Shown here in pieces: positions 983-22,881 of a stretch of 23,081 nt of DNA; the stretch's first letter is position 1; the number at the start of each line of letters is the position of its first letter. The stretch spans positions 1 through 23,081 of IMG/VR virus record IMGVR_UViG_3300046816_000126. The stretch is one strand, 5' to 3'. The position numbers were made by a program, and so were the translations under genes. The notes beneath the pieces are model-generated. The model had not been told where the DNA came from. It did not search any database and worked only from the letters and a program-made list of their open reading frames with translations. The DNA comes from a virus.

Positions 983-1549
983 ATGACCCAAACGATGCAG
1001 ATCAAGACCGCGACAGGCGCGCACACGTTTCAGGTCGAAATCGCTGCGGACGATGCGAGCCGGATGCGCGGGCTGAAGGGCGTCCGGTCTATGCCGCCCG
1101 ATCACGGCATGCTGTTCGCATTTGACCAGGAAGCGCCTCGCACCTTCAACATGAGTGGCGTCGAGATCCCGCTCGACATCATCTTCCTTTCCCAGGCTGG
1201 GCTCGTGACCCACATCGCAGCCAACGCCGAACCGGGGTCAGATCATCCGATCGTCGGCGCGGGCGCGGCGGTGCTTGAAGTGAACGGCGGCACCGCCGCC
1301 AAGCTCGGGCTCAAGGTCGGCGACGAGATAGGAGGAGCCACAATGGCCACCGAACAGATCGACCCCCGCCTCCTCCGGGCAGCTAAGCAAAGCCCTACGC
1401 TCCGATACATGATCGAGCACAAGCTGCCGCTGACCCGCGAGCAGTGGATCAGCTTGAACTACATGGGCCACCCGCCAGAGCCGTGGACGGCCGAGCACGA
1501 GGCCGAAGTGCCGACGCCGTTCAGCCTTCATCCGCAGGATGAGGACTAA
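983..1549 (+). CDS. DUF192 domain protein fused to a second small phage protein, 188 aa
   Basis: A GAGG site lies 5 bases before the ATG. Residues 1-115 match the DUF192/COG1430 fold: the core RMRGLKG...PPDHGMLFAFDQEAPRTFNMSGVEIPLDIIFL is typical (R-x-x-GLm, DxGMLF, F-x-M-x-n-x-x-ipLDiiFl), and KLGLKVGDEI is the usual C-terminal end of that domain. Residues 121-188 (SPTLRYMIEHKLPLTREQWISLNY, then EPWTAEHEAEVPTPF) resemble a separate short phage protein. Met121 (base 1343) sits 7 bases after a perfect AGGAGG, so this part may also be made alone. DUF192 biochemistry is not established. The last codons overlap the convergent gene at 1546. Confidence 0.88.
   Translation: MTQTMQIKTATGAHTFQVEIAADDASRMRGLKGVRSMPPDHGMLFAFDQEAPRTFNMSGVEIPLDIIFLSQAGLVTHIAANAEPGSDHPIVGAGAAVLEVNGGTAAKLGLKVGDEIGGATMATEQIDPRLLRAAKQSPTLRYMIEHKLPLTREQWISLNYMGHPPEPWTAEHEAEVPTPFSLHPQDED
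1330..1345 (+). promoter_or_regulatory. internal ribosome binding site and start codon within the DUF192 fusion
   Basis: AGGAGG (1330-1335), a 7-base spacer and ATG (1343) lie in frame inside the 188-aa gene, exactly at the junction of its two domains. Initiation here would give a 68-residue protein ending at 1549. This is the strongest Shine-Dalgarno sequence in the left cluster. Confidence 0.6.
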
Positions 1550-5036: not shown

Positions 5037-5282
5037 TCAATGCCGCCCAGCGCGCCCGAGCGAGGGCGCATTCGCTCCGCCAGTGACCGTGCCGCCATAG
5101 GCGCGGGAGAGGATCGCATCAGCCTTGCGGTCGATCGCCGCCTGATCGGGATCGTGGTGCATCGCGGCGAAGCCCTTGGCGATGCGGGCGTGTTTCTTAT
5201 CAGGCATCGGGTAGCCGCCAGATCCCGGCTTGCCGAGCCTGGAAGCGGGGAGGCTTTTGCGGACCTTGGCGCTGACGGTCAT
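5037..5282 (-). CDS. small basic phage protein, 81 aa, with shared C-terminal tail
   Basis: The gene starts 3 bases after the portal stop with a GGAG site just upstream. The body is helical and charged (MPDKKHARIAKGFAAMHHDP, AIDRKADAILSRAYGG). The last 16 residues, TGGANAPSLGRAGRH, nearly match the end of the gene at 9509-9748 (TGGVARPPSLGRAGRR), although the codons differ. No enzymatic motif is visible. Its position between the portal and the membrane pair suggests a minor structural or assembly role; that is inference. Confidence 0.75.
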   Translation of the reverse strand: MTVSAKVRKSLPASRLGKPGSGGYPMPDKKHARIAKGFAAMHHDPDQAAIDRKADAILSRAYGGTVTGGANAPSLGRAGRH

Positions 5283-5285
5283 CGT

Positions 5286-7982
5286 TCACTCCTCGCGCTT
5301 CACCCTGAAGTACTGGCCGGTGCGCGGGTGCCGAACGTAGTGGTGGCCGTCGGGCGCCTGCTCGGCCTCGCCGAACGGCGTCGTCACCCGGCCGCCGGTC
5401 GCGCGCTTCTGGGCGGCGGGCTTGGGCTTCGGCGTCGCCTTGATCTGCTGAAGCTTGCCCTGGTTCTGCTGCTCGCCCTGCGCGAGTGACGTGTCACGCT
5501 GCATCGCCCCCTGCGCCATGGCCGTCTGGTGCTGCTGTGCGCCCTGCTGCGCACCTTCTGCGAGTGCCGCGTGATGCGCCTGCTGGCCCTCGGCGAGCGC
5601 CGCCTGATGCCCGAACTGGGCCTCCTGCATCCGCCCCTGCTGCTCCATTCCGGCTTTAGCGACTTCGGTCTGGTGTTTCGCTCCAACCTCGGCCAGACGG
5701 CCCTGGTGGTCGAGGTTCGCCTTCTGCATCTCGCCTTGCTGCTCGACCCCCGCGAGCCGCATCTCGTGAGCATGCTTCATCTGCTCCTTGATCAGTTCGG
5801 TCTGGCGATCGGCGGCGTTCTCCTGCGATTCATGCTGGCGGCCCGCCTGCTCCATGGCGGGCTTCATCTGCTCGTTGCGCGCCTGGAGGCTCGCGGTGTG
5901 GGTCGCAAGCTGCTGCTTCTGCACCCCGGCGTGGGCCGCTTGGATCTTCGCCGTCGCATCCAACTGGCGCGCCTGCGCCTCCATCGGCGCGTTCTTGGCG
6001 TCGAGTTGCAGTTGCCCCTGCTTCGCCTGGGCGTCGAGGAGCGCGGCCTGGGCTGTCGTCAGCGCCGCCTCATCCTTCGGCGATGGCGGCTGCGGCTGCG
6101 GGTTCTGGTTGAGGAACTGATCGGGGTTGGCGAAGCCGATGCCCCGGATGCAGACGCGCCGGATCGTGGTGAGATCGAAGGCGGCCGGGTCGTCCTTCGC
6201 CATCATGTAGAGCGCGGCGTTGCGCAGCATTCGCTGCAAATGCGAGGCGGTGTTCGGGTCCGCTCGGGTGACAATCTGGTAGGTGTTGAGCGCCTTGACG
6301 ACGAGGTCGTCGTCCCATTGCACGACTGCGCTGGGCTTCTGGTGCCGGTAGAGGGCGGCTGGATCTTCGCGGAACCGCTCGACCAGAAGCTGAAGCTCGT
6401 CTGATTGCGCCGCACAAAGCCGCTTGTGCGTTGCGAGAAGCGGCTTGATCGCCTGCTCGATTAAAGCGAGCGTGGTGCCGACAGGCGCGTCCTGCCGCCC
6501 CTCGCCAACCATCACATCGGCCGTGCCGCCGAGGCGCTGGCCTTGCTGGTTCAGGTTGTCGATGAAGCCGACGAAGGTCGCGTCTGGGCTCTTGTAGGGC
6601 ATGCCCATGACGACTTGCTGAATCGGGAGGCCGCCGGTTTCGATCTCCTTGGCCCCGCCTGGGGGCACCCGAATCACCGCGTTATCCTGCCGCCCCGAGC
6701 CCTTCGCCATCAGGAGCCCAGGGAAGTTCGAAAACATCCCCGCGTCGATGAACTCGCGCCATGCCGCCGTGATGCCGTTGGAGATATTGCCGAGCAGATG
6801 CGAGAGGCCAATTCCGTAAATGCCGAAGCCGCGAATAAACGGAAACTGGACGAAGAAGGTCTTCGGCAGACACATCTCGTCGTCGTCGTTCCAGTTGCGG
6901 CGGATCTCCAGAACCTCCTTCGATTCCTTGTCGATCGCCACCTTGTAAGGCACCGCGAGCCCGTCGTTCTTGCCCTTCGTCTGGTGTTCGAAGCCCTCAA
7001 GATCGAGTTCGCAGTAGCATTCGAAGATCTCGTGGTCGCGGTCCTCGCGCTCCGGGCTCTCGTTCTTGCGGACGCCGCTGATCTCCTCGGACTGGACGGC
7101 TGGCGCATCCTTCTGCGTCCAGCCGGGATCGCCGAGCGGCACATCGCGGTAGGCCCCCACCAACTGCATGCGGCGCAGGGTCGAGGGCGCCATCATCACC
7201 CGGTGGGTGATGCGGGTCGCCTCATAGATCGAGGTCGCGCTGTTGTTGATGATGACATCTTCGCCGAACACCGCGCGCGAGACTGGGCGGCGTCGAATGG
7301 GGTCGTGGTAGACCTTCTTGAACACCGAGCCATCGACGCCGATGCGCAGCAGCATTGCGTCGGTGTCGGGAACGTATGGCTTATCGACCGCCGTCAGGTA
7401 GTGGTTGAGGGTCTTCTCCAGCGCATCGGCGAGGTCATCCAGTTCGGTGGTTGCAGCCGCCGTGTCCTGGGCCACCTTGGCCGGGCCATCGGTCGGGCAC
7501 ATCTCGCTGAAAGCGTTGGCTCCAAATCGTACGACCGCCTCGCACAGCATGGTGGCGCGGACCTGGGACTGGCCTTCCAACGGCGCCGAGCCGTCTGGGC
7601 CAGACGATCGCATCTCCTCGATCTTGAGGCCAAGGATCTTGATGCCGCGCGCCCGGGTGTCGAGCCACTCCTGGCGCGAGCGGTTGTCCTCATCGATGCG
7701 CAGCAGAAGCTCGTCGGCGATTCCGCCGAGCACCTCGCGCGGCACCGCCTCGGCGAGGTTGTCATCGAATTTAAGGTCCGCCTTGGGTTTGACCGGCGGC
7801 CCGATGCGGACAATGACCCCGCCGCCCTCGATCTCGATGCCCTTGTCGGTATCAGGGATGAGGGGCTCGTCGTCACTCAGATCGATGACGACGGTTCCCT
7901 GGCGACCGCCCATCGGCGCATCGTTGTCCATGCCGTCGATTGGAGACGGCGGGAGCCTGATGGCGCCCAGACCGGCGGCCAT
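5286..7982 (-). CDS. P22-type portal protein, 898 aa
   Basis: The portal forms the dodecameric ring at the DNA-entry vertex, where terminase docks. Residues about 95-125 (DEDNRSRQEWLDTRARGIKILGLKIEE) followed by ATMLCEAVVRFGANAFSEMCP match the N-terminal helices of podovirus P22-like portals. The middle holds the stem and wing (VQFPFIRGFGIYGIGLSHLLGNISNGITAAWREFIDAGMF, then APVGTTLALIEQAIKPLLATHKRL). Residues about 650-845 are a Gln/Ala/His-rich helical repeat region (HQAALAEGQQAHHAALAEGA), expected to extend the C-terminal barrel into the capsid. The tail carries ATGGRV, a motif common in structural proteins of related phages. At 898 residues it is longer than P22 gp1 (725). An AGGTAGG site supports the ATG at 7982. 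It follows the Ig-like gene by 7 bases. Confidence 0.94.
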   Translation of the reverse strand: MAAGLGAIRLPPSPIDGMDNDAPMGGRQGTVVIDLSDDEPLIPDTDKGIEIEGGGVIVRIGPPVKPKADLKFDDNLAEAVPREVLGGIADELLLRIDEDNRSRQEWLDTRARGIKILGLKIEEMRSSGPDGSAPLEGQSQVRATMLCEAVVRFGANAFSEMCPTDGPAKVAQDTAAATTELDDLADALEKTLNHYLTAVDKPYVPDTDAMLLRIGVDGSVFKKVYHDPIRRRPVSRAVFGEDVIINNSATSIYEATRITHRVMMAPSTLRRMQLVGAYRDVPLGDPGWTQKDAPAVQSEEISGVRKNESPEREDRDHEIFECYCELDLEGFEHQTKGKNDGLAVPYKVAIDKESKEVLEIRRNWNDDDEMCLPKTFFVQFPFIRGFGIYGIGLSHLLGNISNGITAAWREFIDAGMFSNFPGLLMAKGSGRQDNAVIRVPPGGAKEIETGGLPIQQVVMGMPYKSPDATFVGFIDNLNQQGQRLGGTADVMVGEGRQDAPVGTTLALIEQAIKPLLATHKRLCAAQSDELQLLVERFREDPAALYRHQKPSAVVQWDDDLVVKALNTYQIVTRADPNTASHLQRMLRNAALYMMAKDDPAAFDLTTIRRVCIRGIGFANPDQFLNQNPQPQPPSPKDEAALTTAQAALLDAQAKQGQLQLDAKNAPMEAQARQLDATAKIQAAHAGVQKQQLATHTASLQARNEQMKPAMEQAGRQHESQENAADRQTELIKEQMKHAHEMRLAGVEQQGEMQKANLDHQGRLAEVGAKHQTEVAKAGMEQQGRMQEAQFGHQAALAEGQQAHHAALAEGAQQGAQQHQTAMAQGAMQRDTSLAQGEQQNQGKLQQIKATPKPKPAAQKRATGGRVTTPFGEAEQAPDGHHYVRHPRTGQYFRVKREE

Positions 7983-7989
7983 GGCTTAC

Positions 7990-8670
7990 CTACCTTCTTG
8001 ACCGCGCTGGCGCTTTGACCGTCACCGCGTTGCTGTCGGACGAGGCCGAGCCAGCAGCGTTGGTCGCCGTCACGGTGCAATGCACGTCCTCGTTGACGTT
8101 CTCGTCGGTCGGAGTGTAGCCCGACGTGCTCGCACCTTCGATTACTGCCCCATCGGTCTTCCACTGATAGGCGTAGGAGTGCGGTTCGTCCTGCATGTTC
8201 TCCCAGGTGCCCATGGTGCAGGCCAGGGCTTCGCCGACATTGCCGCTCCCGCCGTTGTAGGGCGCTGTCGTCACGACCGGCGGGTTGACAACAGGCGCGG
8301 TTTGCGGGGGCAATGGCGGCGACGAGTAGTGGCCTTGGTCCTCGACCACATAAAACGACCCGGCCTTGATCTCCTCGGCCAGCGCGTCGGTCATCGGGGT
8401 CTGGAAGACAGGCACGCCGTCGCTGAGCCTACCCATCGAGATCCACTTCTCCGGTGGATCTCCATCCTTGGCGATGCGAGTGCCGTTCTTGAACAGCGAG
8501 ACGGCGGCGTCGGGAGCTAAGATCGCATGCTGCTGCTCGGGCTTGGGCGGCGCTTCGCGTGCGTCGGGCGATTCGAAGGGAGGCTGCGGCGTGCGCGCGG
8601 CGGGCGATTCGCGCCCATGATGGTCACGCTCATGCGGGTCGTGCGCCGTGGACTTCGGAGGCTGGGCCAT
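7990..8670 (-). CDS. Ig-like domain virion protein (decoration or head-associated), 226 aa
   Basis: The N-terminal ~50 residues are Pro/His/Glu-rich and probably disordered. Residues 50-110 form a small domain (ISMGRLSDGVPVFQTPMTDALAEEIKAGSFYVVEDQG). After a Pro linker, residues about 140-220 are an Ig-like fold with the hallmark Cys and Trp (GEALACTMGTWENM...SYAYQWKTDG) and the closing strand YTPTDENVNEDVHCTVTATNAAGSASSDSN. Such domains decorate phage capsids, tails or neck proteins and are thought to bind cell-surface or mucus glycans weakly. The location directly before the portal suggests a head or neck protein. The gene is preceded by the 185-bp gap that carries the plus-strand RNA candidate. 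Confidence 0.85.
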   Translation of the reverse strand: MAQPPKSTAHDPHERDHHGRESPAARTPQPPFESPDAREAPPKPEQQHAILAPDAAVSLFKNGTRIAKDGDPPEKWISMGRLSDGVPVFQTPMTDALAEEIKAGSFYVVEDQGHYSSPPLPPQTAPVVNPPVVTTAPYNGGSGNVGEALACTMGTWENMQDEPHSYAYQWKTDGAVIEGASTSGYTPTDENVNEDVHCTVTATNAAGSASSDSNAVTVKAPARSRR

Positions 8671-8751
8671 GGGACGAGGATCTCCTGGATAGCACCTCCC
8701 TCTCGCCTCTCGCCGTCGTTCTTAGCGCAATCCTCCGCCAGTTACAAAAGA

Positions 8752-8780
8752 CTTGACGCCGTCGCCGTTCCTGCTACATC
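8752..8780 (+). promoter_or_regulatory. plus-strand promoter inside the minus-strand operon
   Basis: CTTGAC (8752-8757), a 17-base spacer and TACATC (8775-8780), with TG one base upstream (TGCTACATC) as in extended -10 promoters. CTTGAC is the preferred -35 in alphaproteobacteria. It points against all neighbouring genes and towards the hairpin terminator about 90 bases downstream. Confidence 0.55.
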
Positions 8781-8786
8781 CGCTGC

Positions 8787-8894
8787 GGGTCGCCAGGGAA
8801 CCCGTTTCGATCCCGGCCAAGCGGATGGCTCCCGTGTCGCTCAGAACAGCCGCGCCTAGGCAGAGACGGCGACCGTGGCCACGGTCGCCGTTTT
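8787..8894 (+). ncRNA. candidate small phage RNA, about 108 nt, antisense to the operon
   Basis: The expected start about 7 bases after the -10 and a canonical terminator (8866-8894) define a transcript of roughly 108 nt on the strand opposite to every gene nearby. Near its 5' end CGGGT (8786-8790) pairs with ACCCG (8800-8804) around a 9-base loop. There is no ribosome site followed by a convincing reading frame. The 3' third is antisense to the last codons of the nuclease-like gene at 8856-9509. The 185-bp gap is exceptional in a unit where most genes overlap, which argues that it is kept for a purpose. Expression is not shown; no RNA family is recognised. Confidence 0.45.
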
Positions 8895-9509
8895 GCTATG
8901 CAGTCGGCAGTATGATCCGCCGGGCGGGACTGGACCCTGTAAGCCGCACACAGGACAGATGTGCCAGACGACCGCAATCTTCACCGCACCCGTCAGCCCC
9001 ATCGGAAGAAGCGACCCCGGCTCATCCAACCTCCCTTTGTGGAGATACCACGTCCCCGCCGCTATCCCGTACTCGCCCTTAGAAATCGTCTTTTCCGCTG
9101 CGAAGCGAGCCTTACTTATCACTCCCTCTATGGTCAGCCCTTCTTCAGATTCGCCAGTGACGAAACCTAAGGTGTTAAAATCCAGCCGATCAAATTTCTC
9201 ATTGCTTCTTTGAGGCCAGATCAGACGCGACCCGTAGAAGGTATGTTTCACGTCAAGCTTGGCGGCGCCAATTTGAATGTCATGCCCCTCACCGCGCTTC
9301 CTTTCGTTGAACCAATCCAAGTGGCTGACCGGGTCAAGGTGAACCGCCACGCACACCACGCACTCGGCCATCTTGCCAAACGCAACCATGCGCGTCTTTC
9401 GCGTGCCGGGCGGGGTCCATTCGGCCAGATTCTTGCCTTCGGTCAGAAGAGCGGCAAACTCCCACGAGCGCTTCCCGAGATCAGGCGGCAGGGGGACGTA
9501 GACCGGCAT
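8856..9509 (-). CDS. PD-(D/E)xK nuclease-like phage protein with C-terminal zinc motif, 217 aa
   Basis: I place the start at 9509 (MPVYVPLPPDLGKRSWEFAALL), where TGATG couples it to the upstream stop; the longer frame from 9584 would overlap that gene. The core has GHDIQIGAAKLDVKHTFYGSRLI, an Asp followed after a short strand by D-x-K, as in restriction-endonuclease-fold enzymes; a Glu in the preceding helix (SWEFAALL) fits the fold. The C-terminus holds CPVCGLQ...YCRLH, a probable Cys3-His zinc site. A role in DNA cleavage or processing is inferred. The family has many inactive members, so activity is uncertain. The last codons lie in the terminator palindrome. Confidence 0.7.
   Translation of the reverse strand: MPVYVPLPPDLGKRSWEFAALLTEGKNLAEWTPPGTRKTRMVAFGKMAECVVCVAVHLDPVSHLDWFNERKRGEGHDIQIGAAKLDVKHTFYGSRLIWPQRSNEKFDRLDFNTLGFVTGESEEGLTIEGVISKARFAAEKTISKGEYGIAAGTWYLHKGRLDEPGSLLPMGLTGAVKIAVVWHICPVCGLQGPVPPGGSYCRLHSKTATVATVAVSA
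8866..8894 (+). terminator. perfect 26-bp palindrome with T-tract, rho-independent terminator on the plus strand
   Basis: ACGGCGACCGT (8866-8876), GGCC, then ACGGTCGCCGT (8881-8891), running into TTTT (8891-8894). On the minus strand there is no T-tract after the hairpin, so the terminator orientation is plus. The palindrome also encodes the end of the minus-strand gene (ATVATVAV). Confidence 0.7.
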
Positions 9510-9748
9510 CAGCGCCGCCCCGCGCGCCCCAGGCTCGGCGGCCGCGCGACGCCGCCGGTCGAGAGCGGATGGGCGTGGCGCCATTTCGCGCCCTTGGCCT
9601 GCCGCTTCTCGCCCTTCTTGGTGAGTTCGCGCGTCCCAGGCTTCATCTCGCCAGCCTTCTGGAGCGAGGCAGTCGCCGCCGCGTAGGGATTCACGCCGGG
9701 CGATTCAGCCTTGATGTGCTCGACCGCGCGCTCCCAGATCTTCGGCAT
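9509..9748 (-). CDS. small basic phage protein, 79 aa, sharing a C-terminal tail with 5037-5282
   Basis: The start at 9748 (MPKIWERAVEHIKAESPGVNPYAAATASLQKAG) is chosen because AGGAG lies 7 bases upstream; two earlier ATGs (9763 and 9754) lack that spacing. The WERAVEHI..NPYAAATASLQKAGEMKPGTRELTKKG pattern resembles a common small phage protein of unknown role with a lysine-rich end. The tail TGGVARPPSLGRAGRR matches the tail of the gene after the portal. It overlaps the preceding gene by 40 bases and couples to the next by TGATG. Confidence 0.78.
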   Translation of the reverse strand: MPKIWERAVEHIKAESPGVNPYAAATASLQKAGEMKPGTRELTKKGEKRQAKGAKWRHAHPLSTGGVARPPSLGRAGRR

Positions 9749-9965
9749 AGCCATGCTCCTCATTCAGCACTTTGACATAGGCATTGAGCGCCCGGTCGTC
9801 CTTCGCCGTCCACCCGGCCTCCGGGTCCGAGGCCTTGAACACCGCGATCTCATCATCCTGCGGGCCTCGCGTCGGCCAATGGTGAACGAAACGGCGGTTG
9901 CGATCGGGCGGGCCAGACGGTCCCAGGTTCTTTGTCGTGTAGAAGAGAGGCGGCCTCGGGCTCAT
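9705..9965 (-). CDS. hypothetical phage protein, 86 aa
   Basis: The start at 9965 (MSPRPPLFYTTKNLGPSGPP) is chosen because it forms an ATGA overlap with the upstream stop; the longer frame from 10001 is not needed. The protein has an aromatic, proline-containing N-terminus, a WTAKDDRALNAYVKVLNEEHGY helix in the second half, and no recognised domain. Its end overlaps the next gene by 44 bases, so the two coding frames share sequence there. Function unknown. Confidence 0.65.
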   Translation of the reverse strand: MSPRPPLFYTTKNLGPSGPPDRNRRFVHHWPTRGPQDDEIAVFKASDPEAGWTAKDDRALNAYVKVLNEEHGYAEDLGARGRAHQG

Positions 9966-22027: not shown

Positions 22028-22798
22028 TCAGGCGGCGATAGCGAGGGCTTGAGCCTCGGCGACGATCTGGACGAGGCTCTTGCGGCTCATGTGCATGGTG
22101 TAGCCGGTGCGCGCCTCGACCTCGGCGAGCCGGGCGAAAAGCTCGGGCCGCGCCTGGGCGCCGTGCAGGATGTCGTTCCTGGAGCCCATGATGCAGAAGA
22201 CGCAGGAGAGGCGCTCGTTGCCCGCCGCGTAGGCCGGGTGGGGCTCTTGGCCATCGGCAGCAATCGTCGCGAACACCTCGACGGTGGTCAGGCCGTGGAT
22301 CGGCGCCCAGTCATACCAGTCGCGCCCGGCGACCGAATTGCGCTCGTGGCGCTTGAACACCTCGACCTTGGCGCGCGAGGCGCTCTCCTGGGCGCGGATG
22401 CCGGTGGCGTTGATGATCAGCCGGTGGCCATGGTTGCGGGCGAAGGTGCGGACCTCGCGCTCAATCGGGCCGCGCTTGAGGTCCGACGTGCATTGGCGGG
22501 TGGAAGCGGACGGGAAGGATGGGACATCGGGACGGGTGGCGAAGCGGCGCTCGACCATGTCGAGGAAGCTCTTGGCGGCGCGGGCGACGATGAAGGGAAC
22601 GCCAGCGTTGGCGGCTTGGCGTTCGGCAAGCTCCAGGGCGCCGTCCCATTCGAACTCTCCCAGGGAGGCGTGGACGACCAAGATTTGGTCGCGTGGCACG
22701 ATCTCCAGCATCTTGATCAGGAGGGCTTGGCTGTCTTTGCCGCCCGAGTGATTGACGACAACCAGGGCGCCCTGGTCAATGAGGTCTTGGGGGGTCAT
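22028..22798 (-). CDS. PAPS reductase-like adenine-nucleotide alpha-hydrolase, 256 aa
   Basis: ATG 22798 (MTPQDLIDQGALVVVNHSGG) has GGAG about 9 bases upstream; the frame to 22870 is not needed. The PP-loop SGGKDS is at residues 18-23. Further family features are VVHASLG (43-47), CTSDLKRGP (103-111), NATGIRAQESASRAK (130-144) and SCVFCIMGSRNDI (198-210), whose two Cys could be catalytic or bind a cluster. PAPS reductase/DndC-like proteins activate or transfer sulphur through an adenylated intermediate. Phages often carry them alone, with proposals ranging from nucleic-acid modification to sulphur metabolism. No dnd partner genes are visible. Isolated on its own strand behind an operator-like palindrome. 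Confidence 0.88.
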   Translation of the reverse strand: MTPQDLIDQGALVVVNHSGGKDSQALLIKMLEIVPRDQILVVHASLGEFEWDGALELAERQAANAGVPFIVARAAKSFLDMVERRFATRPDVPSFPSASTRQCTSDLKRGPIEREVRTFARNHGHRLIINATGIRAQESASRAKVEVFKRHERNSVAGRDWYDWAPIHGLTTVEVFATIAADGQEPHPAYAAGNERLSCVFCIMGSRNDILHGAQARPELFARLAEVEARTGYTMHMSRKSLVQIVAEAQALAIAA

Positions 22799-22867
22799 AC
22801 GATTCTCTCCTGCGAGGCCACGCGCCCCGCAACCCTGTGTCTCACTTTCTGCGACATCGGTCAACAA

Positions 22868-22881
22868 CAATCGTACGATTG
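22868..22881. promoter_or_regulatory. 14-bp perfect palindrome CAATCGTACGATTG, operator candidate
   Basis: It lies between the divergent genes at 22798 and 22958, directly upstream of a minus-strand TTGACC box. It contains the ATCGTACGAT core shared with 3380, 13542 and 17829; this copy has the longest symmetry. Confidence 0.5.

Follow-up and report, generated by a model that had tools for sequence, protein, structure and literature searches.

Two minus-strand genes in the head cluster of this phage are separated by a gap that appears to carry a promoter and a terminator directed against its neighbours. Does the gap contain a transcription unit of its own and, if so, what kind of element is it? 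The features on which the answer depends lie as follows in the window (the whole stretch of 23,081 nucleotides that was analysed):

8671-8855, no strand: gap of 185 bp flanked by two minus-strand genes, 7990-8670 and 8856-9584
7990-8670, minus strand: Ig-like head-type gene on one side of the gap, matched in PHROG by Hoc-like and virion proteins
8856-9584, minus strand: nuclease-like gene (242 aa) on the other side, whose 3' end is the presumed antisense target
8753-8780, plus strand: predicted promoter, with -35 TTGACG at 8753-8758 and -10 TACATC at 8775-8780, the latter inside GCTACATC
8866-8894, plus strand: predicted intrinsic terminator, a 26-bp perfect palindrome (8866-8891) that ends in TTTT (8891-8894)
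8787-8894, plus strand: predicted noncoding transcript of ~108 nt, spanning promoter to terminator, its start placed 7 nt past the -10
8856-8894, plus strand: antisense stretch of the predicted RNA, overlapping the nuclease-like gene in its last codons

The promoter has the layout TTGACGC-CGTCGCCGTTCCT-GCTACATC, with TGC directly 5' of the -10 TACATC. The spacer is 16 nt from TTGACG to TACATC, or 17 nt if counted from CTTGAC, as in the earlier note, which had described a plus-strand promoter CTTGAC-17-TACATC with an extended TG. That description was borne out by comparison with the consensus TTGaCgS / GCtANAWC of RpoD, the principal sigma factor of Caulobacter (PMC8144410). The site at 8753-8780 matches TTGACGS-N13-GCTANAWC exactly, and no other exact match occurs in the 23-kb window. 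The number expected by chance per window is 0.01 by shuffling and 0.003 by Markov simulation, and the runner-up site has two mismatches, which is about chance level. An E. coli-type promoter scan of the window did not list the site, because position -7 is C. A T at -7 is absent from most of the alphaproteobacterial sigma-70 promoters analysed (PMC8407463), and the Sinorhizobium consensus, CTTGAC-N17-CTATAT, is related to that of Caulobacter (PMC2873474). The site would thus be a concrete instance of a strong alphaproteobacterial promoter overlooked by an E. coli-type scan. Relatives of the portal protein in named phages, all below 50% identity, are found mostly in alphaproteobacterial phages (Caulobacter, Roseobacter, Pelagibacter), with a few in phages of cyanobacteria and others, which makes an alphaproteobacterial host likely. 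Alignment of the portal against genome contigs yielded no relative, and hence no host by that route.

The terminator hairpin lies 86 nt downstream of the promoter in the same orientation. Its palindrome (13+13 nt, ungapped) is the longest perfect inverted repeat of the window, and palindromes of such a kind are expected by chance at about 0.003 per window (Markov simulation). The hairpin is very strong, but the T-run consists of only four residues and so gives a short U-tract; "perfect terminator", as the element had been called, is an apt description of the stem but not of the T-run. A chance origin of the pair is unlikely, and on these counts the case for a real promoter and terminator appears sound. 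The orientation previously described also held up, with both elements on the plus strand and the neighbouring predicted genes on the minus strand, as did the antisense character of the 3' part: the last ~39 nt of the predicted RNA run antisense to the nuclease-like gene at its 3' end.

A conserved-core search of viral and genome contigs found the short unit in only two further contigs, L005 and L006, so that three contigs in all carry it, all of them close relatives. Compared with the window, these two have a different version of the following segment:

8734-8859, no strand: allelic segment (putative recombined patch) of 126 bp, with 20 sites differing from L005 and L006 between nearly identical flanks

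Positions 8653-8733 are identical to the window in both contigs, 8860-9868 are identical in L005, and the Ig-like gene of L006 differs by one base. Such a sharp step in divergence suggests that the segment was swapped by recombination rather than having drifted in place. The diverged allele nonetheless has the layout seen in the window: the -35 core and the 16-nt spacing are kept in both contigs (-35 TTGACA, the spacing, then GCTACACC, with a -10 that departs from GCTANAWC by one base), and the terminator of L005 is identical to that of the window; the L006 contig ends within the terminator. In other parts of the window, the differences from L005 and L006 are clustered in patches, for example at 6435-6948, a mosaic typical of recombination.

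The two alleles also allowed the content of the predicted transcript to be assessed. Seven substitutions between them fall inside the RNA body and hit all codon positions, with no codon periodicity, which argues against a protein made from this stretch and agrees with the earlier statement that no convincing reading frame lies between promoter and terminator. The blocks that are unchanged between the alleles were looked at after the fact. Folding of the whole RNA was barely better than that of shuffled sequences (z -1.2), and the RNA bodies of the two alleles fold differently, which leaves the terminator as the only RNA structure with support. Rfam searches at gathering and relaxed thresholds found no real match for the gap RNA, in keeping with the previous failure to recognise a known family, and blastn of the unit against phages and plasmids returned nothing useful. 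The ~108-nt structured RNA that the earlier note had proposed to look for in related phages was not seen as a conserved element: the core occurs only in L005 and L006, with no shared fold besides the terminator. A short plus-strand transcription unit, apparently noncoding, is nevertheless well supported by the combination of features described above.

These results bear directly on the idea that the gap encodes a packaging RNA or a small protein. The gap is near the portal and terminase genes, and open plus-strand frames traverse it, but both versions of this explanation are highly improbable. The frames run on through the terminator, and the scattered substitutions do not favour a protein. 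pRNA is a conserved structured RNA common to phages whose portal and terminase are the same, and the pRNA class was rejected because the unit is missing from most portal relatives and its fold is not conserved; the packaging role suggested in the earlier note found no specific support. A regulatory RNA for the portal region, also suggested there, received no specific support, position being the only link to the portal.

Several other apparent signals were discarded. The stretch GTTTCGATCCC hints at a tRNA or tmRNA, and a search gave none. A 15-nt match between the RNA body (8788-8802) and codons of the portal gene (7893-7907) is in the same sense, not antisense; the stretch, near the portal gene start, is present in L005 and absent in L006, and may be due to chance. 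The change from CCTAGG to CTTAAG looks compensatory, but synonymous substitutions in the last codon and the stop of the nuclease-like gene explain it.

The locus was then compared among relatives with 77–86% portal identity and a looser set near 60%. The interval bounded by the Ig-like gene and a conserved small gene (9509-9763), at 8671-9763 of the window, is a hypervariable insertion slot. Plus-strand protein genes occupy it in L007/L027, L008 and L010 (141, 139 and 73–76 aa, respectively), head-strand genes in L009, L012 and L024, and no gene in L047-L051. In its gene content, the interval behaves like a slot for accessory (moron) elements, where relatives carry protein genes. The unit had been expected at this locus in related phages, and it is indeed carried by L005 and L006, but most relatives at 77–86% portal identity lack it, which counts in part against the earlier reading. 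In L008, the slot gene is preceded by AGGAGA before its start and followed just after its end by a hairpin, ACGGCGACC-GTCATT-GGTCGCCGTTTT, that aligns with the window terminator (E 2e-5) and extends over the end of a head-strand gene, nuclease-like but different from that of the window. The window terminator is thus homologous to one that serves a protein gene in L008.

This relationship bears on the main rival to an antisense unit, in which a plus-strand protein gene of the kind seen in L008, L007 and L010 formerly lay between promoter and terminator and has since been lost, leaving at most a short RNA without function. Such an emptied moron cassette would fit the plus-strand protein genes in the slot of three lineages (L008, L007 and L010), the homologous terminator behind the L008 gene, an RNA body that varies between alleles and the lack of conserved RNA structure. 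However, no remnants of the L008, L007 or L010 slot genes were found in the window, and the promoter is an exact consensus rather than a decayed one, with the -35 and spacing retained even in the diverged allele. We consider this explanation a serious one, if somewhat doubtful.

The reading that we prefer, at a probability of roughly 40%, is that of a moron-type antisense transcription unit, inserted among the head genes at an accessory slot, that would make an OOP-like cis antisense RNA. Morons usually encode proteins, and the present unit, which appears noncoding, differs from them in this respect. It is like them in having its own promoter and terminator, as read from sequence only, in being opposite to late genes, and in a content that varies between close relatives: between conserved flanking genes it is present or replaced, the slot carrying protein genes in L007, L008 and L010 and only a short noncoding stretch in the window.

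The second part of the comparison concerns the RNA. OOP RNA proper sits between cII and O, and cis antisense RNAs of the OOP kind lower their target through RNase III. In lambda (pO-oop-tO), OOP is transcribed from a promoter of its own to a terminator of its own, and shares 52 nt with cII at the 3' end of that gene (PMC5869508). The unit in the window shares this layout, as a short, independent antisense unit with a terminator hairpin placed over the 3' end of a neighbouring gene (8856-8894), and its predicted overlap is ~39 nt, compared to the 52 nt of OOP. The two differ in location (the immunity region in lambda, the head cluster here) and in target (a lysogeny regulator there, presumably the nuclease-like gene here), and their sequences are unrelated. 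OOP RNA proper of the lambdoid phages was accordingly rejected as an identification, there being no Rfam match, no match among phage records and a location in the head cluster. A parallel in genomic setting is STnc6030 of prophage BTP1, an antisense RNA to late structural-region genes that is encoded inside the late cluster; BTP1 moron loci have been described as antisense to lytic genes (PMC7067206). STnc6030 is far longer, however (786 nt predicted, versus ~108 nt predicted here), and it is expressed in the lysogen and was tested for superinfection exclusion, whereas the window shows no sign of lysogeny. The unit is a plausible further example of these known antisense and moron kinds.

From the promoter, the terminator, their orientation, the antisense overlap, the variability of the slot and another allele that has diverged in sequence but not in layout, we infer transcription, its start site and timing, and the pairing, decay and any effect that would follow. 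Starting at about 8787 with the housekeeping sigma factor, the host RNA polymerase would run to the hairpin and stop at about 8894, yielding a noncoding RNA of ~108 nt whose last ~39 nt perfectly complement the 3'-terminal part of the nuclease-like mRNA. Since the hairpin is palindromic, it would form in the RNA and in the nuclease-like mRNA alike, and its self-complementary loops could start the pairing. Acting in cis as lambda OOP does, the RNA would anneal to the nuclease-like message at its 3' end, the duplex leading to cleavage and decay of the message, and collision with head-strand transcription might add to the effect. Any antisense unit that overlaps a gene is bound to be complementary to it, so the complementarity is no evidence of regulation. 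A bolder version, in which a noncoding, swappable antisense cassette driven by the host's housekeeping sigma factor, with recombining alleles, lets the phage silence part of its own head cluster early in infection, or silence competing relatives with the matching gene, seems unlikely. If transcribed, the unit would place a short antisense RNA among the head genes of a group of uncultured phages whose distant relatives are phages of Caulobacter, Roseobacter and Pelagibacter, and would exemplify a moron slot carrying RNA rather than protein.

The RNA might alternatively act in trans as a phage sRNA, pairing with host or phage messages elsewhere. Its size, promoter and terminator are typical of that class, and the promoter is of host type. 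However, a duplex-energy scan of 36 gene starts in the window gave no convincing target (two weak outliers near z -3 come from a crude model and were not counted as evidence), and any seed conservation can draw on three contigs only. A trans-acting role is thus distinctly improbable, and the anti-host RNA proposed in the earlier note found no specific support.

The promoter itself might also be what matters, if polymerase bound at one of two back-to-back promoters excluded it from the other. A possible partner is found on the head strand:

8719-8747, minus strand: weak candidate divergent promoter for the Ig-like and portal genes, TTGTAA (8747-8742), 17 nt, TAAGAA (8724-8719)

Only 5 nt separate its -35 box from that of the plus-strand promoter, so that the two could compete, and L007, L008 and L010 have a similar element, TTTG..AC-N15-TAGAAC, at an equal distance from the Ig-like start. 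The RNA would then be incidental, with the terminator limiting its length. The weakness of the minus-strand candidate, and its position upstream of one gene block only, make such an interference or switch quite unlikely.

The presumed target of the preferred antisense unit, the nuclease-like protein, had no match in Pfam or PHROG searches, and its structure prediction reached a pLDDT of 37. The only relatives found were those in L005 and L004, the latter 81–83% identical and on a contig that stops short of the gap region. The residues GHD...LDVKH recall a PD-(D/E)XK enzyme, and the protein has a C-terminal CxxC...CxxH cluster; the terminator DNA encodes only the tail after this cluster. Two different small proteins of the window, encoded at 5037-5282 and 9509-9763 (both on the minus strand), share the C-terminal motif PSLGRAGR, an ending that is kept in relatives of the latter. 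A DUF192 protein (983-1549, plus strand) and a PAPS-reductase-domain protein (22028-22870, minus strand) are likely products of accessory genes.
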